A stretch of 42,483 bases of DNA from a virus, in the IMG/VR virus record IMGVR_UViG_3300007236_000010, positions 1 through 42,483 of that record. One strand, 5' to 3'. A program made the position numbers and the translations under genes. This document shows positions 1-42,476 of this stretch, in pieces. Under the pieces are notes generated by a model that was not told the origin of the DNA, did not search any database, and saw nothing but the letters and a program-made list of their open reading frames with translations. Position 1 is the first letter of the stretch, and every line of letters starts with the position of its first letter.

Positions 1-1608
1 GGGCAAAGATATGACTGTCTAAGAAAGTCTATACTTGTTCAAAGAAAAACTGATTCAAATGGAGAATATTACTATGTTTGTGAGGATGGTATTTTGTTCC
101 ATTCTATTGCTGATACAAAAGTAGTTTCAGGTGGTCAATATGATGAACATCCATGCAGACAATCTAGCCTGAATAACATTTTACCAAAGCCAGCAACTTT
201 CAACATAACAACAATATCTAGCACTAAGCCTTCTGTTACAAAAGTCAAGCGTGGAAGTGCCAAAGCACCATATCTAAAACAACTATCTGCAAATTGGGAT
301 AAATCCCTAAAGGGTGCTGTTCTAGTGTCTTGTCAATGCTGTAAAGGTAAAGGTAGAACTAGGGCTAGTATTTACAACAAAGCAAGTGTTTGTGAATGGT
401 GCAATGGAACAGGTCTAAGTTTCATCTCAGAAAAACAATTTTCAACATTGCCTGATTCTAAAAAGAATTCAGTTGTTGAAACCGATGTTGAAACTCGTCA
501 TTCTCATCCTGAGATTGCAGCACTTCAAGATGCTTTAGATATGGGTACAGTTCCAAACAGAAGTATTAGTTTCGCTGAATCTTTAGTTAGTCAATTCTTA
601 GCGAACGGAAAACTATCTTCTTCTCAGATGTATTATGTCAAGGAACTAAATACGCCTCAAGCAAGTCGTGGTGGAAATCCAAAAATTGATGCTCTAAAGA
701 AAGTCCATGAAAGTCTTACAGGTCGAGACAAAAACTTCGCAATTGATTTGATTGGTTCATGGAATAAATATGGCCGTCTTTCTGACAAGCAAATGTATTG
801 GGTTGGGGAATTAACCAAGAAAGGAATTGCGACTTCTCCTGACGTTACTAAAGTGCAAGATGGATGGGATGCAGTTGTTGAACTATTCAATCAGTTTGAA
901 GGTTCAGAAAACGGCAAACCTTTGAAACACCCAATCATCACTTTAGTTGTTGAGTCCAACACCAAAGAAGCACCAGCACCATGCGTTCCAAAATACGGAA
1001 CAAAAGGTGTTGAAACTTTCAATTCATTTCAAAGAGAATTAGTAATTCGCCCACTAAACTTCTTTGACAAAAGAACAGGAACATCCGAATCAGCAGAATT
1101 ACAGTTTACAGAAGCAGAAAGAGCATCTTCTCAGGATAGCCGTAGATTCATCCAAAATGGTGCAACCCTAGCAAGAGGTAATGTAAACCGTTTCAACGGC
1201 ACTATGACACCTTCTATGGGGCTTCCTGACGATACTTGGATAGTTCTTCAATCCCTTCGTGCAGACCCAATCGCAACTATCCGTAGATTAGGTCGAAAAA
1301 GTGGTTACTGTTGTTTCTGCAACAAGCACCTTTCAACAGATGTTTCAATGACTCATGGATATGGTGCAACCTGTGCTAAGAATGCAGGTCTGCCTTATGG
1401 TAAAAAATCAGCAGCATTGATTGAGAAAGAAATAGAGAATGAAGTAAGCCGAGTTGTTATGCAATTAGAAGGCGGTTCATGGGCTGTTGTATGCCTAGAA
1501 ACTAACTCAGTCATTATGACTTTCGACAACAAAGACCAAGCAGAAAATTGGTTGGATGAAGATACCAAAGTTGCCTTCCAAAACAAAGCAGGGGAATTAG
1601 TAGAATGA
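1..1608 (+). CDS. Zinc-binding viral protein with C-terminal DUF6011-like domain (5' partial)
   Basis: The frame is open from base 1, so the real start lies left of the window; the first internal start-like codon (TTG at 94) cuts into good protein sequence. In the visible 535 residues there are three parts. A DnaJ-like zinc ribbon comes first (CQCCKGKG, then CEWCNGTG, at about 310-415). Two similar segments follow in the middle, FAESLVSQF..LSSSQMYYVKEL and LIGSWNKYG..LSDKQMYWVGEL. A C-terminal treble-clef-like motif (YCCFCNKHL...GYGATCAKNAG) resembles DUF6011. Proteins of this build are common in tailed viruses, usually near replication or structural genes, but their role is not known. The next gene starts inside its stop codon (ATGA), so the two are co-translated. 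A palindrome copy lies at 948-961. Domain calls are from motif memory only. Confidence 0.75.
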   Translation, partial: GQRYDCLRKSILVQRKTDSNGEYYYVCEDGILFHSIADTKVVSGGQYDEHPCRQSSLNNILPKPATFNITTISSTKPSVTKVKRGSAKAPYLKQLSANWDKSLKGAVLVSCQCCKGKGRTRASIYNKASVCEWCNGTGLSFISEKQFSTLPDSKKNSVVETDVETRHSHPEIAALQDALDMGTVPNRSISFAESLVSQFLANGKLSSSQMYYVKELNTPQASRGGNPKIDALKKVHESLTGRDKNFAIDLIGSWNKYGRLSDKQMYWVGELTKKGIATSPDVTKVQDGWDAVVELFNQFEGSENGKPLKHPIITLVVESNTKEAPAPCVPKYGTKGVETFNSFQRELVIRPLNFFDKRTGTSESAELQFTEAERASSQDSRRFIQNGATLARGNVNRFNGTMTPSMGLPDDTWIVLQSLRADPIATIRRLGRKSGYCCFCNKHLSTDVSMTHGYGATCAKNAGLPYGKKSAALIEKEIENEVSRVVMQLEGGSWAVVCLETNSVIMTFDNKDQAENWLDEDTKVAFQNKAGELVE

Positions 1609-1823
1609 AAGTAACAAACTCACAAAGCGTATGCGTGGATTGTGGTCTATCCTCTATCTCCATTGGGGATGACCAACCACGCTGCCAATGTGAGTTCTGT
1701 ATGCTATGCTCTAGGCCAATAAAATGGAATGGACAAAATTGGATTCATGTGGAATCCAAAACAGCAGTTTGGGTTTGGTCAAATCCAACTGCAATTGTGA
1801 ATTGTGTAGATGCTCAGGCTTGA
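1605..1823 (+). CDS. Small cysteine-rich, probably zinc-binding protein
   Basis: A 72-residue protein whose ATG overlaps the previous stop as ATGA, implying coupled translation. It carries CVDCG, a CQCEFC cluster and CSRP, giving enough paired cysteines for one or two zinc knuckles. The tryptophan-rich C-terminal half (WNGQNWIHV...VWVWSN) could pack against them. I do not recognise the family. Being in one operon with a larger zinc protein suggests a shared, probably nucleic-acid-related job, but that is inference. Confidence 0.65.
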   Translation: MKVTNSQSVCVDCGLSSISIGDDQPRCQCEFCMLCSRPIKWNGQNWIHVESKTAVWVWSNPTAIVNCVDAQA

Positions 1824-1882
1824 ATCCGTCATCTACATTTTACAATTCACAAAAATATTTTCTCTGACATCTCAGATATACC

Positions 1883-1896
1883 TGTTGACATCAACA
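1883..1896. repeat. Dispersed palindrome copy, intergenic (TGTTGACATCAACA)
   Basis: A perfect copy of the 14-bp palindrome, lying between a TATA-like stretch (CAGATATACC, 1873-1882) and the start of the next gene. It is one of four copies outside genes. Here it could sit in the promoter of the gene at 1928. A second intergenic copy just past that gene (2238) is also preceded by ATATAC. Confidence 0.85.
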
Positions 1897-1927
1897 GTAA
1901 TTAACCGTAATTTCTCCTTCGATGATT

Positions 1928-2212
1928 ATGGGAAACCGAGCGTTCAGTTTAGCAACAGGAAACAACTTAGTTTTTGCATCAACAACTAACCTACTTTCCA
2001 TAGCAGGTAATACAACAGGTGGAACAGTAACATTAGCACTTTACAATGGTAAAGTTGTAGGTGATATTGCAGCCGCAAATCTTGTTCATACTTTCACTTT
2101 GGCTGCTGGTGCAGTTACATATGGTTTTGAGGGTATTTTATTCCCTGCTGGAATTGTTGCAGTTTTGACTTTGAATGGTGGAACTGCTGATATTCTTTTG
2201 GAACACGATTGA
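1928..2212 (+). CDS. Small beta-rich protein, candidate minor virion (decoration or fibre) protein
   Basis: A 94-residue protein starting MGNRAFSLATGN, rich in Thr, Gly, Ala, Val and Leu in alternating patterns typical of beta-sandwich virion proteins. It has no signal peptide and no cysteines. ATG 1928 is preferred over ATG 1922 because a TATA-like TAATTAAC (1897-1904) is centred 28 nt before it, the spacing seen for other leaderless genes here; no ribosome binding site is present. It is a single-gene unit convergent with the terminase gene. The family is not recognised; the structural role is a guess from composition. Confidence 0.6.
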   Translation: MGNRAFSLATGNNLVFASTTNLLSIAGNTTGGTVTLALYNGKVVGDIAAANLVHTFTLAAGAVTYGFEGILFPAGIVAVLTLNGGTADILLEHD

Positions 2213-2489
2213 GATTCAATTTGCATAGTTCATATACTGTTGAGTTCAACATGGTCGAAAAAGCACTCAACATCTTTTTTTCAGATTTTTACAAATCTAA
2301 ATATTCTGTATTTCTGACTATTTTTTTCTAAATTTGATTTATTCTGCAACCTGCTAGGGGTCAAAACCCTTATTTTCCGATATTTGCCTATTTAGAGCCA
2401 ATCTGACGGCCTCTTTTGTGTTTTAGGACTCTACCTACCAGCGACCCCAAAAAACGGTCAGAAACGCTTCTATTGATATTTGTAAGATT
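2213..2489. other. Convergent intergenic region with terminators and a palindrome copy
   Basis: No gene is seen. On the + strand, T-runs at 2275-2281 and 2321-2327 can end transcripts of the 1928 gene, with a short hairpin AGATTT/AAATCT (2283-2298) between them. On the - strand, the T6 complementary to 2449-2454 lies about 40 nt past the terminase stop. A perfect palindrome copy sits at 2238-2251. The stretch is very AT-rich up to about 2345. Confidence 0.6.
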
Positions 2490-4007
2490 TTAGTCTCCAA
2501 ACACGCCAATTTGGGGCATTCCACTATCTTCATCGAATCCAATTGCTAGTCTTGCATACAATAAAGCATGAAATGCGTGGTCATCTCCATCTCTACCAAA
2601 TTTAGTTTTATTTTGAGCATGAGTTGGTCGCATATTTTGTTCATCTTGTTCTGCTGATGAATTCAAAGAAGTCCATTCGTGTAAAACCCATTCCAAATCT
2701 GTTGTTTTGTATGGTAGAGAAATTTCTTTATTTTTGATTGCTTCAATTGTTGATTCGATGTAAGTTGTTCTATCTACAACAGCCATGTAAATTAGGTTTC
2801 TATTGTTGTCTCTTTTCTTGTATTGAAATGGAGTCAATGGCCGACTAGAATAATAACACGATTTTACCATATCTCCGTACTCTCTTTGGAGTTCTTTTAC
2901 CTGTCTTGCCCCATACCCTATATCGCATACAACTTGTACGCAATTATAGCGTTCTATGAGATTCTTAATTTCTTCAACTTCATCGTTTTGATAGTCAGCC
3001 CTTGAATCTAATTTTAGAGCATTTACAATTTCACCATTTTTTCTCATAATCACAACTGTTGTTTGATTTCCCCAATCAACACCCATCACAGTTTCTTCCG
3101 GTGCATCTACAAATCTCAAAATCTTCCTGTTGGTGTCAACAGCCTTCAATGCTTCATCAAAAGTCAACGGTTTTGTCGAACCAGCGAAAAATTCTCCAAG
3201 AACTTCATTCGCATATCTTCTTGGAGTGTAAGTTGCTTTTTTCATTTTGATATCTTCATCAGTAATTTCAGGATGCATCTTTTGACTGATATGATATCCG
3301 ATAATTCCTTCTTCTGAATTTCCATGAATCCATTCTTCTCCGTTCCATTCTCCTTTGGTAGTTTTCTCCCATAATTTCCAAAAGTCTGAACCCTGTTCTC
3401 TAGCAGTTCCACTAACAAGAACCCACTTGTATTCTGATAGTGCTAACATCTCAACCAACATAGGTAAAACATCTGCACCCGAATCCTGATATTCGTCAAT
3501 ACATACCATGTCTGCTTCGATACCCAATAGACCATGTGCATCACCCCAATTTGAGTAAGCATATAGGTGATTCAAAGACCTTGCACCAACATCAAAAGTT
3601 TGGTGGCTAACTGACTGTTTGATTCTTGGTTTCATCAGGCATCCACCATTGATAGATGACATCAAAGCACCATTGAATCTTTCATCAACAAATCTACTAA
3701 CTTGTGGTTGTCTTGGTGCTGTGTAAACTGCATTGAAATATGGTATGTTCAGAAGGCCATACATTAGTAGATTACAGATGGTTTCAGTTTTCTCAACTTT
3801 TCTACTACATTTGAGAACAACCATTTTTGTTTTTGAAGATTTATTGCTTGGTTGAAAATGCCGATAGACATCTATCAAATATGGTCTTTCGTGAAGGCTA
3901 AATGGCTGACCATTTATTGTTCTAAAATACTGACTCCATCTATCAGGATAAATTGCGATTTCTCTTGCTTGTGTTGCTGTTAATTTAGCAGTAATACTAT
4001 CGCTCAC
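2490..4007 (-). CDS. terL: Terminase large subunit (DNA-packaging ATPase/nuclease)
   Basis: The packaging motor ATPase that drives DNA into procapsids and cuts it. In 505 residues the ATPase domain shows a Walker A-like KCSRKVEKTET (about 66-76), Walker B MVCIDE (167-172) and coupling motif SGTA (199-202). The C-terminal RNase H-like nuclease shows GVDWG (D311), VVCDIG (D362) and GDDHAFH (D475/D476/H477). The Walker A lacks its usual glycine before Lys-Thr (Glu instead), an oddity to verify. The start is GTG 4007, 28 nt from the centre of a TATA-like element at 4032-4039, so the mRNA is probably leaderless. It runs opposite to the head genes and no small subunit is recognised nearby. Confidence 0.9.
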   Translation of the reverse strand: MSDSITAKLTATQAREIAIYPDRWSQYFRTINGQPFSLHERPYLIDVYRHFQPSNKSSKTKMVVLKCSRKVEKTETICNLLMYGLLNIPYFNAVYTAPRQPQVSRFVDERFNGALMSSINGGCLMKPRIKQSVSHQTFDVGARSLNHLYAYSNWGDAHGLLGIEADMVCIDEYQDSGADVLPMLVEMLALSEYKWVLVSGTAREQGSDFWKLWEKTTKGEWNGEEWIHGNSEEGIIGYHISQKMHPEITDEDIKMKKATYTPRRYANEVLGEFFAGSTKPLTFDEALKAVDTNRKILRFVDAPEETVMGVDWGNQTTVVIMRKNGEIVNALKLDSRADYQNDEVEEIKNLIERYNCVQVVCDIGYGARQVKELQREYGDMVKSCYYSSRPLTPFQYKKRDNNRNLIYMAVVDRTTYIESTIEAIKNKEISLPYKTTDLEWVLHEWTSLNSSAEQDEQNMRPTHAQNKTKFGRDGDDHAFHALLYARLAIGFDEDSGMPQIGVFGD

Positions 4008-5006: not shown

Positions 5007-5336
5007 ATGCAAATATATGGAGTAGATTTAGAATTATGGATTGCTGTTTTAGCAGCAGTTCTTGGACTGACAGTATGGGGATTGAAAAAGTATCAGAAAA
5101 TTATGGCTGATGGTAAAGTAAGTCTTGACGAAGTAATTGAAACTTTAACAGAAAGTGAAAGTAAGATTGATGATGTTGTAGATGCAGTTGAAGATTTAAC
5201 TGCTGCTATGGATGCTAAAAAGAAAGCAGAATTAGTAGAACTGTGCAAAGAAAAAGGACTCCCAACATCAGGAACAAAAGCAGATTTGATATCACGCCTT
5301 TCTGAGTCTGTTGAAGCCAACACCGAAGAAGAGTGA
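5007..5336 (+). CDS. Membrane-anchored SAP-domain protein
   Basis: A 109-residue protein with an N-terminal membrane span (about residues 7-24, LWIAVLAAVLGLTVWGL), a short acidic helical linker and a C-terminal SAP motif (KKAELVELCKEKGLPTSGTKADLISRL, about 71-98). SAP motifs are helix-extended-helix DNA-binding units. A membrane-tethered one could hold viral or host DNA at the membrane, or simply be a helical adaptor. The ribosome binding site is AGGTGA 5 nt upstream. A palindrome copy (5309-5322) lies in its 3' end. A second SAP protein is encoded at 13475. Confidence 0.7.
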   Translation: MQIYGVDLELWIAVLAAVLGLTVWGLKKYQKIMADGKVSLDEVIETLTESESKIDDVVDAVEDLTAAMDAKKKAELVELCKEKGLPTSGTKADLISRLSESVEANTEEE

Positions 5337-5711: not shown

Positions 5712-8135
5712 ATGGCCGAGCGTCAGCGAAGTATCATTGACAGGCTTTTGAGAAGAAGGGCTGACCCTTCTGATACTCAAAAGATGTCAGATTTAATCAA
5801 TGGTAATATGGGAAATGATGGAGTTTCTTGGGATGGAAAAACTCTTGCATCCCTGTCAAAAATAGGATTAGCAACAACTGCTGGCCGTCAATCTGCATCA
5901 GGTGCAGATACACAAGTTTCATACAATCTTCTCAGACAAATTTCTCTTAAATCGGAAGTCGTAAATGCAATCTTGAGAAGATGTGTTGATGATACTCTTG
6001 CGAATGGATATGAATTTGTTTTAGCAGATGGAAAAGATGAGGGAAGTCAAGAACAATTAGACAAGTTGCGAAAGTTCTTCAAAAACCCAAATCCTGACGA
6101 TATGGGAGATGAATGGTTAGAGTCTCTTCTGTTCGATTTAATCCTCTTCGGGGATGCCTATTTAGAACTCGATGGAAGTGCCGACAAATCATCTGCAAAT
6201 GGTGAAAATTGGTCATATGGTGGAGACTTGTTGGCTGTGTGGACTATTCCATCAGAAACCATGAAACTCGTTCCAGCAAATCAAACTCCAAAGCCACCAA
6301 AAATGGCGTACATTCAAACGATTGACAAAGTGGTTAGAAAGTTCGATGCAAATAAGGTAATTCACATTGCTAAGTTTAAGCAAGGTAGAGGATATGGTTC
6401 AAGTCCATTAATTCCTTTAATGGAGATAATAGCAGGTCAATTAAATCTATCAAATTATTTGAATATGCTTTACACAGGAACTTTACCAAAAACCATTCTA
6501 AATGTTGGAGATATTTCTAACAGCGAAATGAAATCTATGTTAGGTCTTATCGAGCAACAATTATCAGGTGGAAAATCACCATTTGGACTTATCGCAATCA
6601 ACGGTGGAACAGGATTCAATATGCACCGATTAATTGATTCAACAAGAGAAGGGGCACAGTTAGATTTGTTGTATTATTACCGTGAAGAAATCTGTGCTGT
6701 TTTTGGTATTCCACCAATGAAACTTGGCTGGGTTCAGACAGGTAAATTAGCAAATCCTGAGCAACAACTTGATGCTTGGTATGATGTTATCGAATCTTAT
6801 CATGCGAGGATATCTTCTATGATGAATAATCGAATACTTCCATTGCTTGGAATTACAGATTGGAAATTCAAGTTTGTAACTATCAGACCTTCAAGAGAAA
6901 CAGAAAGAGCCGAGACATTGAAAGCACAGGCATCTGCTGTGGCAACATTAAGACAAGAAGCAGCAATTACAATCAATGAAGCAAGAGAAATGTTAGGTTT
7001 CCCTGTAATCAAAAATGAACAAGCAGATGACCCATTTTTCATTAGTCCAAAACTTTCAATCAACACTCCAAAAAATGCTGATGCAGAATCCAATACAGAT
7101 TCAGAATCAGATGTTGGTTTAGATGATTTATTTCCAAATCCAATGGAACAAGAAGATGAAGAAGAAATTGGTGATATGCCTAAGTTTTCTGAGCCTGAAA
7201 CTGAAATAACATATTCAACAGAAGAACTTCAAAACATGAAAAAAAAAGTTGATGATGCAAGTCGAAATCAATATGATAGAATTATCAGAACAACTACAAG
7301 AGAAACAGAAAAAAAACTTCTGAAAAATCAGGAAGAATTTGCTGACAGATTAATTGACAAATATTCTGAGAGAATAAATCCGACAGATGTTTTTGAATAC
7401 AGTCTTGGAAACGTGTTGAACCCAACATCTGATTTTGACGGTGTTCTGACAAAAGCAGTTGGTGGAGATGACTTAGTTTGGATGGTTGATTTACTCGATA
7501 GAGAATTACAAGAATTACTTGACAAACAAACTATTTCAACATCAACTGCACTTACAGTTGGTTTTGATGAAACTCTTGCTACAATGGCATCTGCATCAGG
7601 TGTTGGAATATCTTTTGATTTTAGAGATGCAGAAGCAATGAGATATTGGAATGCAAGGTGGAGAGTTCCAGCATTGAGAAACACTCTTGGGGCATTCAGA
7701 AAAGAAATATTTACAGTCTTTGAATCAGCACTTGCAGATAGTAAAAATTGGCAATGGGTTCAAAGAGAAATGAGAAAAGTAATTGACCCATCAGGAAAAG
7801 CATTCCCAAGATATTATTACAACAGAATTGCTAGAACAGAAACAAGAAGAGTTGTTGAAAACTCACATCTTTCAGGATTGAAAAAATTAGGATTTTCACA
7901 AGTCCAAAGATTAGTAACTGTTGATTCTGTAACAGACCGAGATTTGTGTATTCCTTTTGAGAATGCTGTATATCCAATTGACAAATCAGGTGGGGTAATT
8001 CCAGCCCATCCAAATTGTCGCTGCACATTTACCCCATACGAAGCATCTGACGAAATTAATCCAATAGAACCTGTGGCTGATTCACAGATTTTGAAACCTG
8101 ATGTTGAGGGTGCTGAGATACTAGATTTGGAGTGA
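5712..8135 (+). CDS. Portal protein fused to a MuF-type head morphogenesis domain
   Basis: An 807-residue protein. About residues 1-450 are portal-like: the order of ...RQISLKSEVVNAILRRCVDD, a phage-portal core with LLFDLILFGDAYLE, then IHIAKF and the YREEICAVFGIPPMKLG clip/stem region, is typical. An acidic linker follows (about 470-500). The C-terminal part has the MuF signature ARTETRRVVENS ... D..VTDRDLC ... IPAHPNCRCTF (about 702-775), normally a separate minor head protein. A fusion would place MuF domains at the portal vertex in fixed copy number. It starts with ATGGCC at 5712. A palindrome copy lies at 7414-7427. Confidence 0.88.
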   Translation: MAERQRSIIDRLLRRRADPSDTQKMSDLINGNMGNDGVSWDGKTLASLSKIGLATTAGRQSASGADTQVSYNLLRQISLKSEVVNAILRRCVDDTLANGYEFVLADGKDEGSQEQLDKLRKFFKNPNPDDMGDEWLESLLFDLILFGDAYLELDGSADKSSANGENWSYGGDLLAVWTIPSETMKLVPANQTPKPPKMAYIQTIDKVVRKFDANKVIHIAKFKQGRGYGSSPLIPLMEIIAGQLNLSNYLNMLYTGTLPKTILNVGDISNSEMKSMLGLIEQQLSGGKSPFGLIAINGGTGFNMHRLIDSTREGAQLDLLYYYREEICAVFGIPPMKLGWVQTGKLANPEQQLDAWYDVIESYHARISSMMNNRILPLLGITDWKFKFVTIRPSRETERAETLKAQASAVATLRQEAAITINEAREMLGFPVIKNEQADDPFFISPKLSINTPKNADAESNTDSESDVGLDDLFPNPMEQEDEEEIGDMPKFSEPETEITYSTEELQNMKKKVDDASRNQYDRIIRTTTRETEKKLLKNQEEFADRLIDKYSERINPTDVFEYSLGNVLNPTSDFDGVLTKAVGGDDLVWMVDLLDRELQELLDKQTISTSTALTVGFDETLATMASASGVGISFDFRDAEAMRYWNARWRVPALRNTLGAFRKEIFTVFESALADSKNWQWVQREMRKVIDPSGKAFPRYYYNRIARTETRRVVENSHLSGLKKLGFSQVQRLVTVDSVTDRDLCIPFENAVYPIDKSGGVIPAHPNCRCTFTPYEASDEINPIEPVADSQILKPDVEGAEILDLE

Positions 8136-8541: not shown

Positions 8542-10958
8542 CAGAACTCCAAACTAAGAAAACGCCAACAAGACAACAACTAACTCCACCAGCAGGTGTC
8601 AAAGCGGCCTGTAAAACAGGAATAAAAATGGTAGAAGAAGGAATGGGTGGAAGTGGATTAGAACCAGCCACAGTTAGGGAAGCAAGAGCAATTGTTAGGG
8701 GTACACCAATCACAGTTGCCAAAGCCAAAAAAATGGTTCGATGGTGGGGAAGAAATGCAAGGTTTTTGACTTACGATAAAGATTCACCAGCATGGGTTGC
8801 TGCATTACTTTGGGGTGGCCGAGCAGGGTTATCTTGGTCAAGAAAATTAAAGAGAACTTTTGATGCAGAAGATAAGGCTGCACAGGGTTCAGTTTCGTCA
8901 GGAGATTTTGTTTCTTGGACTACAAGAAAAGGAAGATATGTTGGAAAAGTTGAGAGAGTTCAAACATCAGGAAGTATCTCAGTTGCTACAAGTGAAGGTG
9001 GCTCAGAAAAAGTAGAAGTTTCATCTGATAATCAAGTAGCAATAGTTCGTGTATATGTGGATAATGAAGATAGCACTTTTTCACGTTCAAACAGAACTGT
9101 TCCTGTAAAAGTTTCAATGTTAAGAGTTCGACAAGAACCGAAAATAAAAGCATCTGCTGCTGTCAAAAAAACTCTCAAACAAAAAGCAGATGACCACAAT
9201 AAAAAAGTTGGAAATGCAAAATCTAAAAGAACAAATGTAAGAACACTTTCAGCCGTTTTTGATAGGGGAGTGGGGGCATACCAAACTAACCCTCAAAGTG
9301 TTCGCCCAACAGTCAATTCAGCAGAACAATGGGCGTATGCTAGGGTAAATTCATTTCTCTATGTTTTGAGGAATGGTAGATTCAGGGGTGGTAAGCACGA
9401 TACAGACTTGCTTCCAAGTGGTCATCCTCAATCATCTAAGAAAGAAGCGAATCCCTCAAGAACCATAACTTCTACAAGCGAAGATATGACTCACGAAATC
9501 TCGATAGATGATGCTACAATAGTTGGAGATAATGACTTTGAATCTAAGGCTGGAAAATCTATGCCTGTTGAGATTCATTACAGAATAATTACACCATTCA
9601 AAGTTGACAAAACAATTCAAGAAAAAGAATCAGATGATGTCAAGATTCGTGGTGCGGTTTATGTCGGTGGAGATGATATGCTAGACAGGCATGGAGAACT
9701 TGTTGATTCTAAGGCAATAATGGATGCGTGGGAGAAGTATTCCAAGAATCCTGTCATTCTATACAATCACTCAAAAACATACGGTGTAATAGGCCGTATG
9801 ACCGATGTTTCTATGGAAGAACAAGACGGTGTAAAAATGCCTATGGGAACTGCAATCATTGATGGTGGAGAAAAAGATATCACAAGAAAAATCAGAAAAG
9901 GAATGTTGAAGGCATTCTCAATCGGATTTATCGCTAAGGCAGCAGTAAAAGAATGTAAAGACGATGATAGTTGCTACATGAAGTTCACCGAAATTGATTG
10001 GGTCGAAACTTCGGTTGTAGATGTTCCAGCAAGTCCTGACGCACTTTTCTCAGTTCAGAAATCTGTAATGTTAGGTGTTGAGGCCAACATGGAAGATTGC
10101 GACTGTGGAGATGATTGCTGTGATGAAAAAGATGCAGAATCAAAAATTAAGAAATTAGATTTTGATACTACTGAAAAACACATAGTAAGAATCGAAGAAG
10201 ATGACCAATATATTACTGTCGTCTATGGTAAATCCGAAGAATGGGAAGGAATAGATGTTGATACAACAGATGCACCCGAAGAAGCGGGATATTATGATGA
10301 AGATGATGATAAAAAGATGATTTTCGATGTTTTAGCCAAATTAGATGCTATTGAGAGTCGTCTTGAATCAGACGAATCAGTTAATAGCCACTTGGAGTCA
10401 AGCAAGGGATTAATGAACTCCGAAGATATGGACATAATCACAGAAGATGCTGCTGCAACCGAAGAGGAATCAGTAGTTGTCGAGACTCCTGAATTAACAG
10501 AAGAAGTTGTTGAAACAACAGAAGAAATGATGGAAGAAAAATCCGTAGAAGAAGAGGTCGCAATGCCTTCTCCAAGAGAAGCATTAATTGATGTTGCATC
10601 TGCATTAAAGAGTATCATGGAGACTCTTGAGTCTATGCAAGAAAAATCACAAGAAGTTGTTGAAGAAGAAATTGACAATTCAGAAGATGAAATTACAAAT
10701 CTAAAGGCTGAAATTGCTGCACTTAAAGAAGAGAAAGCAGCAAGAGAAGCAGCAGAAAAACTTGAGGCAGAAGTAGCCAAGAGAGTAGAAGAAAGACTTG
10801 CAGAAGTTGGTGTTGAAGCAACTCCATCTCGCAAATCTATCCCAACTGTTTCAGAAAAGAAAACAGTAGCAAAAACATTCGACCCACAACCAAATGTGAG
10901 TAAGGGCATGAACGGATTAGCAGTATGGCTAGAATCCAATATTGCACATAGGAACTAA
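8538..10958 (+). CDS. HK97-type prohead maturation protease with N-terminal accessory and C-terminal scaffold-like domains
   Basis: An 806-residue multi-domain protein. At about 12-100 lies a phage module PPAGVKAACK...GLEPATVREA...WGGRAGLSW, often seen beside proteases. At about 110-160 is a small SH3-like unit (GDFVSWTTRKGRYVGKVERV), which resembles DUF2945. The U35-type protease follows at about 355-505, with catalytic His411 (YNHSK) and Ser461 (AFSIGF) and the ETSVVDVPA strand. After residue 520 it becomes strongly acidic and then coiled coil (EITNLKAEIAALKEEKAAREAAEK), as expected of a scaffold cleaved off during maturation. It lies directly before the capsid gene. A palindrome copy lies at 10076-10089. 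Confidence 0.87.
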   Translation: MTELQTKKTPTRQQLTPPAGVKAACKTGIKMVEEGMGGSGLEPATVREARAIVRGTPITVAKAKKMVRWWGRNARFLTYDKDSPAWVAALLWGGRAGLSWSRKLKRTFDAEDKAAQGSVSSGDFVSWTTRKGRYVGKVERVQTSGSISVATSEGGSEKVEVSSDNQVAIVRVYVDNEDSTFSRSNRTVPVKVSMLRVRQEPKIKASAAVKKTLKQKADDHNKKVGNAKSKRTNVRTLSAVFDRGVGAYQTNPQSVRPTVNSAEQWAYARVNSFLYVLRNGRFRGGKHDTDLLPSGHPQSSKKEANPSRTITSTSEDMTHEISIDDATIVGDNDFESKAGKSMPVEIHYRIITPFKVDKTIQEKESDDVKIRGAVYVGGDDMLDRHGELVDSKAIMDAWEKYSKNPVILYNHSKTYGVIGRMTDVSMEEQDGVKMPMGTAIIDGGEKDITRKIRKGMLKAFSIGFIAKAAVKECKDDDSCYMKFTEIDWVETSVVDVPASPDALFSVQKSVMLGVEANMEDCDCGDDCCDEKDAESKIKKLDFDTTEKHIVRIEEDDQYITVVYGKSEEWEGIDVDTTDAPEEAGYYDEDDDKKMIFDVLAKLDAIESRLESDESVNSHLESSKGLMNSEDMDIITEDAAATEEESVVVETPELTEEVVETTEEMMEEKSVEEEVAMPSPREALIDVASALKSIMETLESMQEKSQEVVEEEIDNSEDEITNLKAEIAALKEEKAAREAAEKLEAEVAKRVEERLAEVGVEATPSRKSIPTVSEKKTVAKTFDPQPNVSKGMNGLAVWLESNIAHRN

Positions 10959-29420: not shown

Positions 29421-29434
29421 TGTTGGCCTCAACA
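29421..29434. repeat. Dispersed palindrome copy at a convergent gene junction (TGTTGGCCTCAACA)
   Basis: It fills most of the 25-nt gap between the helicase stop (29412) and the minus-strand gene stop (29438). Being outside coding sequence, it shows the repeat is a DNA signal, not a peptide motif. Confidence 0.85.
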
Positions 29435-31699: not shown

Positions 31700-31715
31700 T
31701 AAACAGGTGGATAAT

Positions 31716-33752: not shown

Positions 33753-34955
33753 ATGTCGCCTAAAAAGACCCCAAGTAAATTGCCAAAGTATGCTGAAAAG
33801 AGATTACGCCCATTCATAGATAGTGGGATTTCAAAAGGAATCTTTACTGATGATTCCACAGTAATTCAACTGTTCGCAAACTTTGCTAAAGACCCAACAA
33901 ACAAACCGCAAATAGACGCTCTAGGTGGAATGAAAAGTGAGATAGCACAGTCATTCGTTACAGATGCAGTTCTGATAGATTTAACCAGCATTCTAAGACA
34001 GAAAAGATACACAGCACACGTTGATGTTTTTGAAGTTGCACATAGGACAGTTGGAATCAATAAAGGCAATCCTCGACCTGCCTGTTTTATGATAGGTCAA
34101 GCAGTTATCGAAGATACAGATGGAAGCGTTATGGATTCAGCACTTTTCAGAATGAGTTTATGGGATGCCGAAACTGCAATAGCAGACGATGTTGAAGCAG
34201 GTGGAACTTACTCTCTAAGTGTATCTTGTAGGAATCTTGATGCGGAAGTTCTTGACCTTAGAACTCTTTCAGGAATTACTTCTTTCAAATCAGAAAATTA
34301 TGACCATTCTGATAGAAGTGAATTGCTAAAATCAATGTTCGATATTACACCAATTTCTGACTTAGATGATGACATTAGCAGAAGCCCAACTGATTATCGT
34401 TTAGTTGAAGCAACTGTATCATATGCAGGTGTTCAGAATAGTAGGGCTGGAAGTCAATTTGGCAAGATGCTTTTGAAGGATGATTCTACTATGACTATGG
34501 AAGCAATTGAAAGTGGTGAAAACTTACTTTTGAATTGCATAACATCAACATCTATTGCTTCAAGATTTGGAAAATACAGTCGCATTTTAGCACTCCTAAC
34601 TACGAAAGATAATGGTGAATATGGACTATCTGCAAATGTAGAAACTGCAATTGGTATTATCACAGTTGCACCCCCTGTTCCTGAAACTTCTGTTGGTTCA
34701 GATGATGATGATGATGATGCTGCTGATTACTTCAATAATTCAGACATCAAAACAATCGGTGATGATGAAGATGATGAAGAAGAAGTTGTGGAAGAAGTTG
34801 TGGAAGAAGTTGTGGAAGAAGTTGTGGAAGAAGTTGTGGAAGAAACCGAATCTGAAACAGAAGAAGAAGCGACTGTTGAAGTCAACACGGAATCTAATGA
34901 AAATCCAAGTCCAGCAGAATCCGATGACGATGACGATGATTGGGAAGATTGGTGA
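33753..34955 (+). CDS. OB-fold single-stranded DNA-binding protein (RPA-like)
   Basis: A 400-residue protein. Two OB-like regions are suggested by strand patterns, about 100-185 (YTAHVDVFEVAH...AVIEDTDGSVMDSALFRMSLWDAE) and 215-310 (YRLVEATVSYAGVQNS...KMLLKDDSTMTMEAI). The last 80 residues are very acidic and carry five VVEE repeats. They end in DDDDDDWEDW, an acidic tip with aromatic residues like the partner-binding tails of SSB proteins. The gene precedes RecA-like, nuclease and PCNA genes, fitting a replication ssDNA binder. A palindrome copy is at 34874. Confidence 0.7.
   Translation: MSPKKTPSKLPKYAEKRLRPFIDSGISKGIFTDDSTVIQLFANFAKDPTNKPQIDALGGMKSEIAQSFVTDAVLIDLTSILRQKRYTAHVDVFEVAHRTVGINKGNPRPACFMIGQAVIEDTDGSVMDSALFRMSLWDAETAIADDVEAGGTYSLSVSCRNLDAEVLDLRTLSGITSFKSENYDHSDRSELLKSMFDITPISDLDDDISRSPTDYRLVEATVSYAGVQNSRAGSQFGKMLLKDDSTMTMEAIESGENLLLNCITSTSIASRFGKYSRILALLTTKDNGEYGLSANVETAIGIITVAPPVPETSVGSDDDDDDAADYFNNSDIKTIGDDEDDEEEVVEEVVEEVVEEVVEEVVEETESETEEEATVEVNTESNENPSPAESDDDDDDWEDW
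34785..34844 (+). repeat. Five tandem 12-bp repeats (GTTGTGGAAGAA)
   Basis: Five perfect in-frame units, encoding VVEE as at 13598-13669 but with different valine codons (GTT GTG here, GTA GTT there). The two arrays therefore expanded independently or diverged before expanding. Confidence 0.95.
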
Positions 34956-35879: not shown

Positions 35880-37076
35880 ATGAAAGTTCCGTACTTATCC
35901 GCATCAAGACTAAAACTTGCTCAGGATTGTATGTTTTCTTATGGGAAAAAATACGACCCTGATACTGCTGATGATAGAACTATCAGATGGAAGAATGAAC
36001 ATCGAGATAATATGCAAGCAGCGAAGTTAGGAAATAACATTCACAATGCTTTGGAAGAATGGAGAAGGCCGAACCCCGAAACAGGAAAAGTAAGAAGGCC
36101 ATTGTTGAAAAAATTGCTAGAATTGTATGACGAAGAATCTTCTAAGAATGAAGTAAATTTCGATATGTATGAAGATGGAAAAAATATGATTAAAAGATGG
36201 TTCGTAGAAAGGGGTGGAAATAAGGTAAAAGTTCTTGCAGTCGAACAAGCATTTGGCTCACACAAAGCACCATACAAACTATCCAATGGAACACCCATTT
36301 TCGGTTTCATAGATTTGGTGTTAGAACACCCTGATGGAACAATAGAATTGCTCGATTACAAATCGCAAAGAAAACCAATCAAACAAGAAGAAGCAGATTC
36401 AAATGTTCAGGCTGGAATGTATCTTGCAGTAGCAAGTGAAATATGGCCTGATAGAGATATCATTTTTACTTTTGATTTGTTACGATATGGAACTGTAACA
36501 ACCATATGGTCAGATGAAAAAATAGACTCATTCAAATCATGGTTGAAAGGTAAGTATGAATGGATTCAATCTGTAACTGACCCTGTACCAACAATAGGTG
36601 AAGGATGTAAGTGGTGTCCGTTTGTAGATATATGTCCGACAGCACAGGATTTGATAATGAATGGTTCATGGGATTTGGTAGTGCCTGATGACCCAACTAT
36701 TCTTGACCAAAATGAAATGCTTACAACTCTTGCATCAGTCAAAGCAGCACAGGCAATTTTGACTAAGAAAAGAAAGCAAATAGAAGATACAATAAAACAA
36801 GAATGGTTTGACATGGTTTCAGGTGGAGAAGCAGTAGAAACTAAGGAGTGGAAGGTTACATATGATGATAGAAAAAGAACAGAATATATTCCATCAGAAG
36901 TTCAAAGAATAGTAGGTGCAACAGCCTATGGTCAAATCTCAACTTTATCTAAGACTGCTGTTGAACGAATATTGCCTATATTACCCGATAATGTAGCCGA
37001 AGAAGTAAAGAGTTCCGCTATTACTAAACCCTACCGCACATTGAATGTAAGACGAAAGGCGAATGACGAACTCTAA
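35880..37076 (+). CDS. RecB/Cas4-like PD-(D/E)XK nuclease with Fe-S cluster motif
   Basis: A 398-residue nuclease. Core motifs are GNNIHNALEEW (His55), FGFIDLVLE (Asp145), IELLDYKS (Asp159-x-Lys161) and Gln177 (NVQAGMYL). Cys17 near the N-terminus with Cys243, Cys246 and Cys252 (CKWCPFVDIC) matches the four-cysteine iron-sulphur arrangement of AddB/Cas4-type enzymes. It would trim DNA ends in recombination or packaging. GAGG lies about 7 nt before ATG 35880. No CRISPR genes or arrays are present, so a Cas4 role in spacer acquisition is not supported. Confidence 0.85.
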   Translation: MKVPYLSASRLKLAQDCMFSYGKKYDPDTADDRTIRWKNEHRDNMQAAKLGNNIHNALEEWRRPNPETGKVRRPLLKKLLELYDEESSKNEVNFDMYEDGKNMIKRWFVERGGNKVKVLAVEQAFGSHKAPYKLSNGTPIFGFIDLVLEHPDGTIELLDYKSQRKPIKQEEADSNVQAGMYLAVASEIWPDRDIIFTFDLLRYGTVTTIWSDEKIDSFKSWLKGKYEWIQSVTDPVPTIGEGCKWCPFVDICPTAQDLIMNGSWDLVVPDDPTILDQNEMLTTLASVKAAQAILTKKRKQIEDTIKQEWFDMVSGGEAVETKEWKVTYDDRKRTEYIPSEVQRIVGATAYGQISTLSKTAVERILPILPDNVAEEVKSSAITKPYRTLNVRRKANDEL

Positions 37077-37419
37077 CGATGAACAAAAAGACCCAATTTC
37101 AAGGGAAGTTCCTTCGTCAAAATATGGTACTCGTAAGTTCGGTAGAATGGGTAAAACCGATGGCCGAAATGTCAAAAGATTATGGAAGGCTTTGATTGCT
37201 GCTGGTGCAATTTATCCTGACGGAAATCCCTTGACAACAGGGGAAATAGTTCAGTTGAAAAATCAACCATTTGAGATTCATAGATTGACAAATCATCTAG
37301 CCAAAAAACCACATCTGTTTTTTTGTGCTGGTGAATCGAGAGTTGCAGGTCTTGATGGAAGAACAAAATATCCTCAGAAAACTTGGTTAGCACATGAAGA
37401 TGCTTACGATGAAAAATAA
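37063..37419 (+). CDS. Small helix-turn-helix-like protein
   Basis: A 118-residue basic protein overlapping the nuclease gene by 14 nt. GRNVKRLWKALIAAGAIYPDGNPLTTGEIVQL...FEIHRLTNHLAKKPHLF (about 35-82) has the helix spacing of a winged helix, with the rest unstructured in look. No family is recognised. It could be a DNA-binding regulator; if so it is one candidate to bind one of the repeated sites in this window, but there is no direct evidence. Confidence 0.55.
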   Translation: MTNSNDEQKDPISREVPSSKYGTRKFGRMGKTDGRNVKRLWKALIAAGAIYPDGNPLTTGEIVQLKNQPFEIHRLTNHLAKKPHLFFCAGESRVAGLDGRTKYPQKTWLAHEDAYDEK

Positions 37420-37551
37420 ATTTCTCGATTTTTTCCTCAGTTTTTTTCAAACATTCCATGTTGAAGCCAACATCTGAATTGATTCAAGCCGAAAAACTAT
37501 GAATTCACAAAATGACTTCATTTATATCGGTGGGCTAACCAATGAAAAATT
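37420..37551 (+). other. Intergenic region: oligo-T terminators, palindrome copy and class I promoter
   Basis: T6 at 37429-37434 and T7 at 37441-37447 end the previous operon. A perfect TGTTGAAGCCAACA lies at 37459-37472. The class I promoter ATTTATATCGGTGGGC at 37520-37535 is centred 27 nt before ATG 37552. Confidence 0.7.
37520..37535 (+). promoter_or_regulatory. Class I promoter (ATTTATATCGGTGGGC) of the clamp gene
   Basis: The best TATA match of the nine copies (TTTATAT). It is centred 27 nt from ATG 37552; an out-of-frame ATG at 37542 lies too close to be the start. Confidence 0.72.
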
Positions 37552-38349: not shown

Positions 38350-38576
38350 GTATGTTCGACCCAAACAAAAACCGATTCGATTTACAATTAGCAGAAGAGA
38401 TGTTAGGTATGACAGAAGATGACAAAATATCCTTGAAACTAATTGTCTCAGTTGACCTACTTTTGGCTCATGCTGGAATCACCGATGAACAAGTTCAGAT
38501 GGCTTACAAAGCAAGAGTTAAATCTCACATTCAAGATGCTTCGGATAATCTAAAAAATATACTGAATGAAGAGTGA
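38346..38576 (+). CDS. Small acidic helical protein
   Basis: A 76-residue protein whose GTG start overlaps the clamp stop (GTGA); GAGG lies 5 nt upstream. ATG 38352 is an alternative. It is all-helical in look (LQLAEEMLGMTEDDKISLKLIVSVDLLLAHAG...), with no recognised family. It sits between clamp and primase genes in one operon, so an accessory replication role is a reasonable guess only. Confidence 0.55.
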   Translation: MSMFDPNKNRFDLQLAEEMLGMTEDDKISLKLIVSVDLLLAHAGITDEQVQMAYKARVKSHIQDASDNLKNILNEE

Positions 38577-38581
38577 TTGAG

Positions 38582-39772
38582 ATGAGTTTATTCGATGTTG
38601 ACAACATTGATGAAATGGCTAATCATTTTGGATTCAAACATTATCCAAGAGCCATAGGAAATCCACGTCAAAACTTTGTCTTTGCTACGGAAGATATCTA
38701 TCGGTCTTACTCAAAATGGAATGGAAATAAATCTTGTTTCATAAGCACAGGTGGATATGATAATTTACAATATGAAGTTGGAAATAAACAATCTCCAAAA
38801 ACAATTGTTTACGAACTAACTTTCTTCGACTTTGACCATTCAACAAAACCTGAAAATGCATTTGCTGATGCTCAAAGATTATCTGCGTTTTTGAGAGAAA
38901 TGAATGTGGCTCATTGGGTTCAATATAGTGGTAGTAAAGGATATCATTTATTCATAGTCCATGAGGCTACTAGATTCAAATTTGACTTCAAGGATGGTAG
39001 TGGTGAAGCATTGAAGCAAATCGTGCATCAGACGCAAGACCATTTGCGTAAAACGATAGGTCTGAATACACTTGATGAGCAGACAACAGGCGACCCCAAA
39101 AGACTGTGCAGATTTCCTTTTTCTAAGCACATAGATAGACATGGAAATAGTAGTGGCCGACACGCAATGCCTGTTGATGTGGAACTTCTCGATACACTAT
39201 CACATGAGGACATTGAAAAGATGTCTTATCGGCCAAAATATGAGTTGCCTAAAATCAATGGAAGGAAATTAAAACTGATTGATTTTGTAAAGGAACTCGG
39301 AGTAAAATTACATTCTCCTGAATCATTACTTCGACCCGTTGTAAATGTTGACTTCAACATTGCTCAAACCGATGCGGAAGCATCTCGATTTCTTGCATCC
39401 TTAGATAGAAGATGTATGGGAGTTGTCAATGAATTAAAGAGAAGAAATCCACCACATAAGCCGAGAGTTTATTCTGCTTTGTTTGCTAAAATATTAGGAA
39501 TGGGTTTGCATGATTTTGAAAAGATATGGATGCAGTTAGGAACTGAAATTGGATATGTAGATTTACACAATACTGAACATCGGCTGTATCAAATGTCAAC
39601 TATCTTCGATGACCCCAAATATTACATCTTCCCAAACTGCACTACGCTCAAAGCAAATGGATGCTGTGTAGGCGATATTTGCCCCCGATTCAAGGATATG
39701 GGGGGCATGGATTATCAACCCCGTCAGATTAAACGCAAATGGTCGAAACGGGATGATATCAAATCAACGTAA
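38582..39772 (+). CDS. Archaeo-eukaryotic primase: PriS catalytic domain with PriL-like C-terminal domain
   Basis: A 396-residue protein. The catalytic AEP core shows FFDFD (Asp83, Asp85), the motif II SGSKGYH (116-122) and motif III DPKRLCRFPFSKH (171-183). The C-terminal part (about 270-370) has Cys278, Cys353, Cys361/362 and Cys367, in RRCMG...YQMSTIFDD...PNCTTLKANGCCVGDICP. This is the layout of the Fe-S domain of the large primase subunit. Thus one polypeptide may do the work of PriS and PriL. ATG 38582 is chosen over GTG 38573. It overlaps the nuclease gene by 20 nt. A palindrome copy is at 39346. Confidence 0.85.
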   Translation: MSLFDVDNIDEMANHFGFKHYPRAIGNPRQNFVFATEDIYRSYSKWNGNKSCFISTGGYDNLQYEVGNKQSPKTIVYELTFFDFDHSTKPENAFADAQRLSAFLREMNVAHWVQYSGSKGYHLFIVHEATRFKFDFKDGSGEALKQIVHQTQDHLRKTIGLNTLDEQTTGDPKRLCRFPFSKHIDRHGNSSGRHAMPVDVELLDTLSHEDIEKMSYRPKYELPKINGRKLKLIDFVKELGVKLHSPESLLRPVVNVDFNIAQTDAEASRFLASLDRRCMGVVNELKRRNPPHKPRVYSALFAKILGMGLHDFEKIWMQLGTEIGYVDLHNTEHRLYQMSTIFDDPKYYIFPNCTTLKANGCCVGDICPRFKDMGGMDYQPRQIKRKWSKRDDIKST

Positions 39773-40616
39773 GACAAGATATGGAAGATTACTTGATGAC
39801 CGTTCTGAACTAATTGATTTTCTCGATTCTGCTTCACTTGGTCAACTGCTGGGATTCTCTCGATTCCTAACTGTGGAACTTGTTGAAGTCAACACGCAAT
39901 CATTGTCAATTTCTCCAAGTTCAGATGAGATTTTTCCACTTGTCAATCAGATGATTTTGAATGAGTTATTTTCTCGACATAGACGGGTTGACCATAGAGA
40001 ACATAAAGAAATGCTGACCTATCTTTCTGAACTTGGTTTTGAGATAGTTAGTCTTGATACAGGCAAGGGTGATGTATCAACAAGAAAGGTCAGCATAGAA
40101 CGTAAGGAAGATGACTTCATTCCTTCCCTGTTTGATGGCCGTAGGCTCAAGCAGTTGGGTGCTATGAGAGAAGAGGCTGAATACTCCTATCTGATTGTTT
40201 CAAAGTCTTACGATGCGATTAGATTAGGTGCAAGAGATAGGGGTGTTAGTGAACAAACTCTAATCTCTTTCATAGCATCTCTATGTGCTGTTGGATATCC
40301 ACCAATTTTTATTGACAACAGGCATGATGCTGCATTACTAACTCACAAGATAGTTCAGAAAATAGAAGATGATAATCCAAGACTGTATGTGCCTAGACCA
40401 AAATCTCCAACTGTAAATGAATATCGAGATTGTCTGATTGAAGGATTACCAAAAATCGGTTCAAAATTACGAAGAAGGATTACCAAAAAATATCCAACAA
40501 TAATTTCACTTTGTCAAACAACACCGGAAGAACTCTCGACAATCGAAGGTGTTGGCCTCAACACAGCAAACAGAATACTCTCAGTTTTACGTGGAGAAAA
40601 AAATGATTCGGCTTAG
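39753..40616 (+). CDS. XPF/ERCC4-type structure-specific nuclease with HhH domain
   Basis: A 287-residue protein. The nuclease core has GD (106-107) and the signature VSIERKEDDFIPSLFDGR (113-130), with ERK at 116-118. A C-terminal (HhH)2 domain lies at about 230-285 (EGLPKIGSKLRRRITKKYP... TIEGVGLNTANRIL). There is no helicase domain, as in the short archaeal XPF form. It would cut branched or flapped DNA during replication or recombination, likely with PCNA from the same operon. It is the only gene in the window seen to end in TAG. Palindrome copies lie at 39881 and 40550. Confidence 0.85.
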   Translation: MISNQRKTRYGRLLDDRSELIDFLDSASLGQLLGFSRFLTVELVEVNTQSLSISPSSDEIFPLVNQMILNELFSRHRRVDHREHKEMLTYLSELGFEIVSLDTGKGDVSTRKVSIERKEDDFIPSLFDGRRLKQLGAMREEAEYSYLIVSKSYDAIRLGARDRGVSEQTLISFIASLCAVGYPPIFIDNRHDAALLTHKIVQKIEDDNPRLYVPRPKSPTVNEYRDCLIEGLPKIGSKLRRRITKKYPTIISLCQTTPEELSTIEGVGLNTANRILSVLRGEKNDSA

Positions 40617-40629
40617 TCAGAAAATGAAG

Positions 40630-41185: not shown

Positions 41186-41194
41186 AATCAATTC

Positions 41195-41210
41195 TATCAT
41201 AAGGGTGGGA
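41195..41210 (+). promoter_or_regulatory. Class I promoter (TATCATAAGGGTGGGA)
   Basis: Centred 29 nt before ATG 41227. Confidence 0.68.
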
Positions 41211-41226
41211 TTAAACAGATTATCTC

Positions 41227-42252
41227 ATGTGGTCTGAAAAGTATCGCCCAAATAATCTCGATGATATTGTTGGTCAGGAACATATCGTGAAAAGACTCAG
41301 GTATGTAGTTGAGAAATTACATGAGAATGGTGATGATGCTGCATTCCCTCATATGATGTTTTCAGGCAAGGCTGGAACAGGAAAAACATCAGTTGCAGTA
41401 GCCCTGATGAAATCTATGTTTGGTGAAGATTGGAAGGCCAATTTTATCGAGTTAAATGCAAGTGATGAGAGAAGCATCAATGTCATCAGAACTACGGTCA
41501 AAGACTTCGCTAGAAGAGGGACAATTGGAACATATCAAACTAAGGATGGAAAAGATTTGTTGATTCCATTCAATGTTGTATTTCTCGATGAGTGTGATAA
41601 TCTCACTTCTGATGCTCAAGCAGCATTGAGAAGAATCATGGAAAAATATTCCAAGCAAACTAGATTCATTTTATCCTGTAATTATCCTCACAAAGTTATA
41701 GCACCAATCAGGGATAGATGTGCTTTCTCAGGTTCAAGGTTCAAGCCTATCCCATCTGATGCTATTTGCAGGGCTTTAGAGGCCGTTGTAGAGCAAGAAC
41801 GTCTCGATATAGCACCGAATGCACTAGAGGCCGTAGGAATGGCTGCAAATGGCTCTATGAGAAGTGCATTAAATTTGCTTTTTTCTGTTACTCGCATTCC
41901 AATCCGAGTAGAAATTGAAGATGTCAATGAAATTACAAACGAAATATCTCAGAAATCGCTTCGACAAATGCTAGGATTGGCTGTTGAATCCAACAAATTA
42001 GGTGTTGAAGATTCAAAATATGTCAAGATTCACCAGCGATTAGATTCTATGGTCGAGAATTTGGGTGAAAAAGGTATGAGTGGAGTCGAAATTTTAGATG
42101 CATTTTTGATGACTGTTGAAGAAGATTCCAATGTTCCAAACAAACTGAGAAAATCAATCTACAAAAGTATGGGCGAAGCAATATATTGGTGTTCAATTTC
42201 ATCTGACGATTTACTAACCGTCAAGACATTTCTAAGGAGAATAACTGTATGA
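41227..42252 (+). CDS. Replication factor C small subunit (clamp loader)
   Basis: A 341-residue AAA+ clamp loader of full family length. Conserved boxes are [16 protein letters not shown], Walker A GKAGTGKT (47-54), [12 protein letters not shown], Walker B FLDECDNL (119-126), sensor 1 LSCNYP (149-154) and IRDRC (161-165) where SRC is usual. A C-terminal helical collar domain follows. It would load the clamp encoded at 37552. No large RFC subunit is seen, so loading may use a homopentamer or host partner. The gene ends in ATGA overlap with the next. A palindrome copy is at 41982. Confidence 0.93.
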
Positions 42253-42476
42253 GTGAAATTGAAGAAAAAGTAATAGAAAAAATACGACAAAGAGCCGAGT
42301 TAGGTTTGAACAAATATAACACAACAATGGAACGTACAGATTTGACTTTGAAAGAATGGATAAATCATGCTATGGAAGAGGCTATGGATTTGTCAGTTTA
42401 TCTTCAACGGATTCTGATGATGTTGGAATCTCAAGATGTTGAAACCAACACGGAGTTTTTGGAAGAATCCGAGTGA
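42249..42476 (+). CDS. MazG-like / DUF550-like nucleotide pyrophosphohydrolase
   Basis: A 75-residue helical protein overlapping the clamp loader stop (ATGA). The pattern R...[37 protein letters not shown] fits the short all-alpha NTP pyrophosphohydrolases, with the metal-binding Glu/Asp set in EEAMD (about 43-47). Such enzymes adjust nucleotide pools for viral replication. It ends 7 nt from the window edge. A palindrome copy (42437-42450) encodes its DVETNTEF tail. Confidence 0.65.

Follow-up and report, generated by a model that had tools for sequence, protein, structure and literature searches.

The 42,483-nucleotide stretch of virus DNA analysed here (IMG/VR record IMGVR_UViG_3300007236_000010, positions 1 to 42,483; hereafter the window) contains 22 exact copies of a 14-bp palindrome, TGTTGRNNYCAACA, scattered from position 948 to position 42450. 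The copies form an array in which both arms are under purifying selection and in which the word changes symmetrically, at homologous places, between related viruses; the 14-bp frame and a similar copy number recur in these relatives, and the spacing is even in part of them. We interpret the palindromes as a genome-wide array of binding sites for a viral, fast-evolving symmetric dimer that would organise or mark the viral genome, an interpretation to which we assign a probability of about 0.48. Under this scenario, the binding sites would follow each other at one per ~1.3-3 kb across the whole genome, and their reader would be a symmetric (dimeric) DNA-binding protein encoded by the virus itself. 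The protein and its sites would co-evolve, such that a shift in the preference of the protein replaces the word throughout the array, and the role of the array would lie in genome-wide organisation or marking (compaction, packaging or a replication territory) rather than in the control of single genes.

The palindrome in the window

An exact recount agrees with the preliminary description of the window, made from the letters alone, in both the number of copies and their span. In 100 dinucleotide shuffles of the window, the motif appeared 0.05 times on average and never more than once, so that the earlier rough estimate of 0.01 chance copies was of the right order. The same description had proposed a comparison with codon-preserving shuffles: when synonymous codons were permuted within each of the 42 called genes, with the protein and the codon usage kept, 1000 shuffles gave a mean of 0.43 and a maximum of 3 in-gene copies vs 18 seen. 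The other 4 of the 22 copies lie outside the 42 genes, and of the 18 coding copies 16 share one codon phase and 2 are in another, as had been reported. The view that selection acts on the DNA is supported, and so is the suggestion that the motif has the shape of a symmetric-dimer site. All 22 window copies of TGTTG-N4-CAACA also have the R/Y pair. Decaying copies are hardly present because 2 sites are one mismatch away from the motif and 19 are two mismatches away. The prevailing codon phase is the one point in favour of attributing the motif to chance, to base composition or to a peptide repeat. This phase is to be expected because TGTTGA in phase 0 includes an in-frame TGA stop, and sequence reasoning indicates a mild V-[D/E/G]-x-N peptide for phase 2. 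Such an origin is refuted by both kinds of shuffles and is further contradicted by the intergenic copies, the two phases and the symmetric switching of the word described below, so we consider its probability negligible. The sites, as obtained from the exact motif search and the 42-gene list and given without strand, are listed here in window coordinates, together with a candidate gene discussed below.

Site 1, 948..961: in gene 94-1608
Site 2, 1883..1896: intergenic
Site 3, 2238..2251: intergenic
Site 4, 3128..3141: within the terminase-like gene on the minus strand (2490-4007); the same place holds TGTCGGTGTCGACA in G004 and cTATTGGCGTCAATAg in G009
Site 5, 5309..5322: close to the 3' end of gene 5007-5336
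Site 6, 7414..7427: in the portal gene, second codon phase
Site 7, 10076..10089: in the prohead protease gene 8538-10958
Site 8, 14267..14280: in the HNH-like gene 14037-14303
Site 9, 16721..16734: in a glycosyltransferase-like gene
Site 10, 19109..19122: in a minor-tail/tape-measure-like gene, second codon phase
Site 11, 23957..23970: in gene 20577-25265
Site 12, 24083..24096: in gene 20577-25265
Site 13, 27010..27023: in gene 26375-27532
Site 14, 29421..29434: between convergent genes
Site 15, 32069..32082: in gene 31707-33728
Site 16, 34874..34887: close to the 3' end of gene 33753-34955
Site 17, 37459..37472: intergenic
Site 18, 39346..39359: in gene 38573-39772 (weak primase-polymerase match, below the Pfam cut-off)
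Site 19, 39881..39894: in the ERCC4/HHH gene 39753-40616
Site 20, 40550..40563: close to the 3' end of the ERCC4/HHH gene
Site 21, 41982..41995: in the clamp-loader (RFC small) gene
Site 22, 42437..42450: close to the 3' end of gene 42249-42476
p118 gene, 37063..37419, plus strand: predicted winged-helix-like protein, well conserved; second-choice reader candidate

Conservation of the arms and replacement of the word

The window is part of a 64,851-base virus contig, denoted G001 (IMGVR_UViG_3300025759_000090), in which the sites are offset by 4309-4321. The preliminary description had also proposed a search of related viral contigs, and the motif was indeed found there, with words specific to each class of virus. 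The TGTTG palindrome is present in 34 copies in G001 (64.9 kb), 32 in G003 (58 kb) and 16 in G002 (23 kb). The aligned DNA of G003 and G001 is 90% identical and 30 of the 34 G001 sites are alignable; all 30 keep the ten arm bases in G003, vs 53% of the neighbouring windows in the same phase (P ~5e-9), with the four centre positions 85% and the flanks 90% identical. The arms are also kept at 10 of 10 sites in G002 (P 5e-4) and at 4 of 4 and 8 of 8 sites in G475 and G476, respectively, the latter two counts not being significant.

Four other relatives, G004, G005, G021 and G022, hardly contain the TGTTG palindrome (no more than one copy per contig) and instead carry TGTCG-N4-CGACA in 12, 9, 14 and 8 copies, respectively. 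Compared with G001, the portal is 81% identical in G004 and 79% in G005, the terminase 91% in G004, 93% in G021 and 90% in G022, and the aligned DNA 77% in G004 and 75% in G005. Two right-half contigs obtained later via the PolB and VWA proteins, whose sample numbers match those of G021 and G004, added 14 and 9 TGTCG copies. When gaps were allowed, 23 G001 sites could be aligned in at least one of six TGTCG contigs, and at 14 of these an exact TGTCG palindrome was found; the other nine include 5 near misses, 1 unconverted site and 3 sites that are lost or gapped. Hybrid TGTTG/TGTCG sites are absent from G001, G002, G003 and G477, and there are 2 in G474 and 3 in G021. At the site within the terminase gene, the TGTTG, TGTCG and cTATTG versions occupy one and the same place.

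Other words in the same frame

A survey of 24 terminase-bearing contigs for which a tree was built, by exact search for palindromes with five-base arms and four free central positions, revealed the words TGTTG (3 contigs), TGTCG (3), TGTTC (G015, 27 copies), TATTG/CTATTG or TATCG, and TACTG (4 copies in G019 and 8 in a further contig, G478), and the motif class largely tracks the virus tree. A degenerate search with four-base arms and gaps of 2-11 was then applied to 15 contigs, with the collagen-like/GGTCC repeat regions of G016, G017 and G032 excised beforehand. In the same 14-bp frame, this search yielded TATY in G023 (52 copies vs 4.7 expected), G025 (47 vs 1.3), G027 (60 vs 3.7) and G480 (40 vs 5.9), TAYY in G478 (24 vs 2.3), TAMG in G016 (42 vs 3.4) and G017 (38 vs 3.7), and WAMG in G032 (63 vs 12.6). 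By the pattern used for each, the nine long contigs (65-83 kb) contain 27-60 copies each. In G029 (40 vs 7.0), G030 (39 vs 4.4) and G033 (18 vs 3.5), the sole signal was YTAT-N8-ATAR. The exact palindrome search gave nothing beyond log10P -4.9 in the first 50 kb of four control genomes (HCTV-5, HRTV-25, Bacillus phage Finn and the marine virus AG-345-P14); in a set of 49 archaeal loci, each 9 kb or longer, the signals of two consisted solely of runs of N, and the strongest signal elsewhere had a log10P of -4.7.

Several signals were set aside. GGTCC-N4-GGACC in G016, G017 and G032 is confined to a single region in G017 and in G032 and to both ends of G016, and by eye corresponds to Gly-Pro coding repeats; a GGTCC-like signal also occurs in G481, and GGACC in G009. 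The 'CMKG'-type signals that topped the degenerate search in G009 and G015 were taken for gene-internal repeats. Counts from palindromic expectation maximisation (up to 90 sites) were not used because its null model takes no account of coding structure or of iteration. A separate palindrome, TATAAC-N6-GTTATA, was left uncounted; it occurs in 6 copies in G017 (L205-L209), 5 of them outside open reading frames (ORFs), and in 3 copies in G032 (L243-L245), 1 of them outside ORFs, and might represent an operator or a promoter element.

Spacing and placement of the sites

The coefficient of variation (CV) of the spacing, which is ~0.96 for random positions, was 0.60 in G001 (P for even spacing 0.0009), 0.62 in G009 (P 0.0014), 0.56 in G025 (P <0.00005) and 0.75 in both G023 (P 0.016) and G027 (P 0.014). 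Combination by the Fisher method over five genomes, one per class, resulted in 4e-8 with G025 representing the TATYG class; with G023, G027 or G480 in place of G025, which is the most even TATYG genome, the value was 5e-6 to 2e-5. Among 400 sites in ten genomes, 82 lie between genes vs 53.7 expected (1.5-fold), 273 lie in gene bodies, and 28 and 17 fall, respectively, in the last and first 90 nucleotides of genes (~26 expected each; 26.3 for the first). The positions themselves are poorly shared between classes: the G001 sites that coincide with a site of another class number 1 of 19 in G015, 3 of 21 in G009, 4 of 19 in G027, 5 of 20 in G023 and 0 of 18 in G016, the expected number of coincidences among the mappable G001 sites being 0.06-0.27. 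Comparisons made within a class (TATYG or TAMG) found 20 of 38, 9 of 37 and 18 of 35 sites to coincide. Because few sites coincide between classes, the number and spread of the sites are kept better than their positions, which slowly change.

Candidate reader proteins

The best candidate for the reader is HTH190, whose gene lies outside the window (G001 56927-57499). The AlphaFold2 model, built from 15 sequences (mean pLDDT 78), combines a winged helix with a pair of helices in the tail. Together with the stretch preceding it, the tail resembles a ribbon-helix-helix (RHH) arrangement (beta-alpha-alpha), the strand being predicted from the sequence and the two helices from the model. In VIA-align, HTH190 had winged-helix neighbours with Z up to 8.7, a range that may mean only a common arrangement; a profile search against the PDB returned one weak match, to a designed coiled coil (E 0.008), and Foldseek gave no match at E 0.001. 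The family is present in 19 contigs by profile and additionally in G025 by tblastn, and HTH190 ranks among the more divergent of the shared proteins. We consider it possible, at somewhat less than even odds, that HTH190 reads the palindromes.

The protein p118, encoded within the window, is also a predicted winged helix, with weak Foldseek matches; it is only the second choice because its presumed recognition region is identical in the TGTTG, TGTCG and TGTTC classes. A further protein, p377, seemed to be restricted to the motif bearers but was dropped when a profile search found members of its family in 26 contigs.

The virus and its genes

The products encoded by G001 include a family-B polymerase, a clamp-loader subunit, ERCC4/HHH and PD-(D/E)XK proteins, a DEAD/Helicase_C_2 helicase, portal, capsid, protease and minor-tail proteins. 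The terminase-like protein shows 25-31% identity to annotated phage terminases (the best among the matches listed). The GenBank phage matches are distant, such as those to haloviruses, at 22-24% for PolB and 37-39% for the clamp loader, haloviruses being nearest for the latter gene among the matches listed, and we therefore use the label 'archaeal-type tailed virus'. The preliminary description had spoken of an archaeal virus; the clamp loader and the family-B polymerase are consistent with this, as a label that is based on genes. Magroviruses (order Magrovirales, viruses of Poseidoniales) encode PolB, primase, an ERCC4 nuclease and tailed-virus head genes (PMC10160649; PMC12999244). The G001 gene list is similar (PolB, ERCC4, PD-(D/E)XK, portal, capsid, protease and the primase-like match below the cut-off), and no named magrovirus appears among the listed GenBank matches of terminase, PolB and RFC, all of which are below 40% identity. 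Pfam recognised no methyltransferase, integrase, ParA or ParB among 57 G001 proteins (part of its ORFs), and PADLOC reported only Cas4-like matches, for the PD-(D/E)XK protein.

Some additional features of the gene complement were noticed. Acidic EEVVEEVVEEV repeat runs are present in two otherwise unlike genes of the window, 13475-13840, which also has a SAP domain, and 33753-34955. A profile search detected the small HNH endonuclease-like gene 14037-14303, which is located in the head-tail module, in 19 contigs. Outside the window, CobS/CobT-like AAA and VWA genes lie at G001 50859-52106 and 53532-55706, and an AAA and VWA pair is likewise annotated in halovirus HCTV-5.

Comparison with known systems and alternative explanations

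The closest known kind of array is that of the stoperators. In Cluster A mycobacteriophages such as L5 and Bxb1, a short site is present in 20-30 copies, and each phage has its own consensus and repressor (PMC6550527). The L5-type stoperators span 13 bp, lack symmetry, follow the direction of transcription and are recognised by a monomer (PMC9283540). The viruses analysed here have a similar copy number (34 in G001, 32 in G003, 27 in G015) and a consensus that likewise differs between relatives, but their sites are 14-bp palindromes (22 of 22 in the window), are located mostly in genes, follow each other at even distances in some of the genomes and belong to archaeal-type viruses. Thus, the likeness to stoperators drawn in the preliminary description holds for the dispersal of the sites and is weakened for stoperators in the strict sense. 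A stoperator-like mechanism would have a viral repressor bind all sites and silence the genome, with the class words serving as immunity specificities. Beyond copy number and class-specific words, the enrichment between genes, especially in G015, would favour such a mechanism. However, palindromes cannot be oriented whereas L5-type sites lose function when reversed (PMC9283540); moreover, most sites are in gene bodies, the first 90 nucleotides of genes are not favoured, no integrase was recognised among the 57 proteins, and even spacing would not be expected. We regard this explanation as rather unlikely.

The parS sites of chromosomes are palindromic and lie around the origin, over ~15% of the DNA (PMC5016525). 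Like parS bound by ParB, the present palindromes are predicted to be protein-bound, several per molecule, but there are 27-60 of them over the whole contig, without clustering (G001 CV 0.60 vs 0.96 random), and the Pfam-scanned proteins include no recognisable ParA/ParB. Phage-plasmid N15 has dispersed centromere sites. Given that stoperators are asymmetric and parS sites cluster at the origin, the array is best viewed as a variant of the dispersed-site kind that is a member of neither family. The operators of ribbon-helix-helix and winged-helix proteins (CopG, Arc, MarR/Fur types) have symmetric half-sites about one helical turn apart and occur at one or a few promoters. The half-sites described here have the same geometry, and the candidate reader combines a predicted winged helix with an RHH-resembling tail; the difference is that gene starts are not favoured overall, with G015 as a possible exception. 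In the literature searched, mostly without subscription papers, we found no description of an array of this type, and 'palindrom' in the magrovirus papers referred to CRISPR only.

The reader might also be a host protein that organises or partitions the chromosome, in which case the virus would carry host-type sites and the class words would follow the host. The GC content, 38% in G001 vs 43-46% in G004, G005, G021, G022, G473 and G474, differs between the TGTTG and TGTCG relatives, so their hosts may differ. A scan of IMG/VR with one exact form, TGTTGAAGCCAACA, gave at least 120 stretches. Of the 119 readable loci among the matches listed, 115 had one motif, two had two, and the two with at least three copies were G001 and G003, both of this clade; these loci accordingly give no sign that unrelated viruses share a host factor. 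One archaeal order was reached via the locus L124: of its 98 genomes, 27 had 1-3 matches in 0.9-3 Mb, vs 0-5 for a reversed control, and this order is probably not the host of the virus. A rhodopsin gene was not found in 398 genomes of the phylum of L124 and G014, which does not prove its absence, so that the L124 group, which has a euryarchaeal title, is only probably not Poseidoniales. An archaeal genome of the group searched contains a distant terminase relative (G387, locus L251; E 6e-56). Overall, a host reader appears improbable.

A Chi-like or protective mark, by which the palindrome would signal stopping points to a viral helicase-nuclease or label DNA as self, would need precisely such spread-out, position-free, lineage-specific sites, and genes for the DEAD/Helicase_C_2 helicase, the PD-(D/E)XK nuclease and ERCC4 are present. 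Bacterial marks of the Chi/KOPS type are similarly spread genome-wide, selected as DNA inside genes and lineage-specific in their words; they are, however, asymmetric and strand-biased, and known Chi sites are shorter and oriented, in contrast to palindromes. In addition, the identity of the two nuclease-like proteins amounts to 81 and 86% when the TGTTG class is compared with the TGTCG class, and to 45-67% in comparison with the other classes. Such a mark therefore seems to us a poor prospect. Recognition by a modification or restriction enzyme, which the preliminary description had left open, would suit a symmetric motif with a free centre. This option has been weakened: the 10-12 constrained bases (12 in the window motif) exceed the length of known sites, the motif is strongly over-represented and not avoided, and no methyltransferase was detected among the 57 proteins; we deem it very improbable.

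A number of observations weigh against the binding-site array for a viral dimer that we favour. Spacing is not significantly even in four of the nine long genomes (G480, G015, G016 and G017), and when 16 contigs were analysed with slightly different patterns, 6 had P <=0.009 and 10, mostly partial, were not significant at 0.05. In G015, where many sites avoid the larger genes, 17 of the 27 lie between genes vs 4.6 expected by the ten-genome gene list, an estimate that depends on the list, as 24, 17 and 10 of the 27 fall in ORFs of at least 60, 100 and 150 amino acids, respectively; several of its TGTTC sites (L195-L199) are 57-72 nucleotides from the next ORF, a more promoter-like placement than in the other classes that would suit gene control by operators. 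The four phage controls attained log10P -8.3 to -16.5 under the degenerate search, at 2- to 4-fold enrichment; therefore, P alone is insufficient support for the degenerate words, which in the clade are enriched 5- to 36-fold (TATY, TAYY, TAMG/WAMG), and the words of G029, G030 and G033, which are degenerate only (5- to 6-fold in G029 and G033), are tentative. As for HTH190, it lacks the tail, as called, in G029, G033 and G015, the last of which has 27 exact TGTTC sites, and it is present also in G016, G017, G032, G029 and G033, in which the words are degenerate or weak. Its class differences go with the virus tree and thus are not independent evidence of co-variation with the sites. No site lies within 250 nucleotides upstream of HTH190 in 14 contigs (the nearest are at -276 in G027 and G482 and at -338 in G478), and hence there is no sign of autoregulation.

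Implications

A more specific version of the favoured scenario, which we consider doubtful, is that a fast-evolving dimer of the winged-helix/RHH-like type, sitting on 30-60 spaced palindromes, might serve archaeal tailed viruses as a sequence-specific chromatin or a packaging ruler, with the array and the protein switching in concert. Irrespective of the reader, these viruses provide a natural series of related genomes in which 27-60 copies of a site switched their word together, in several steps. This series permits one to ask how specificity shifts in a DNA-binding protein and in its genome-wide sites, and which benefit a tailed archaeal virus would draw from proteins arrayed at regular distances.

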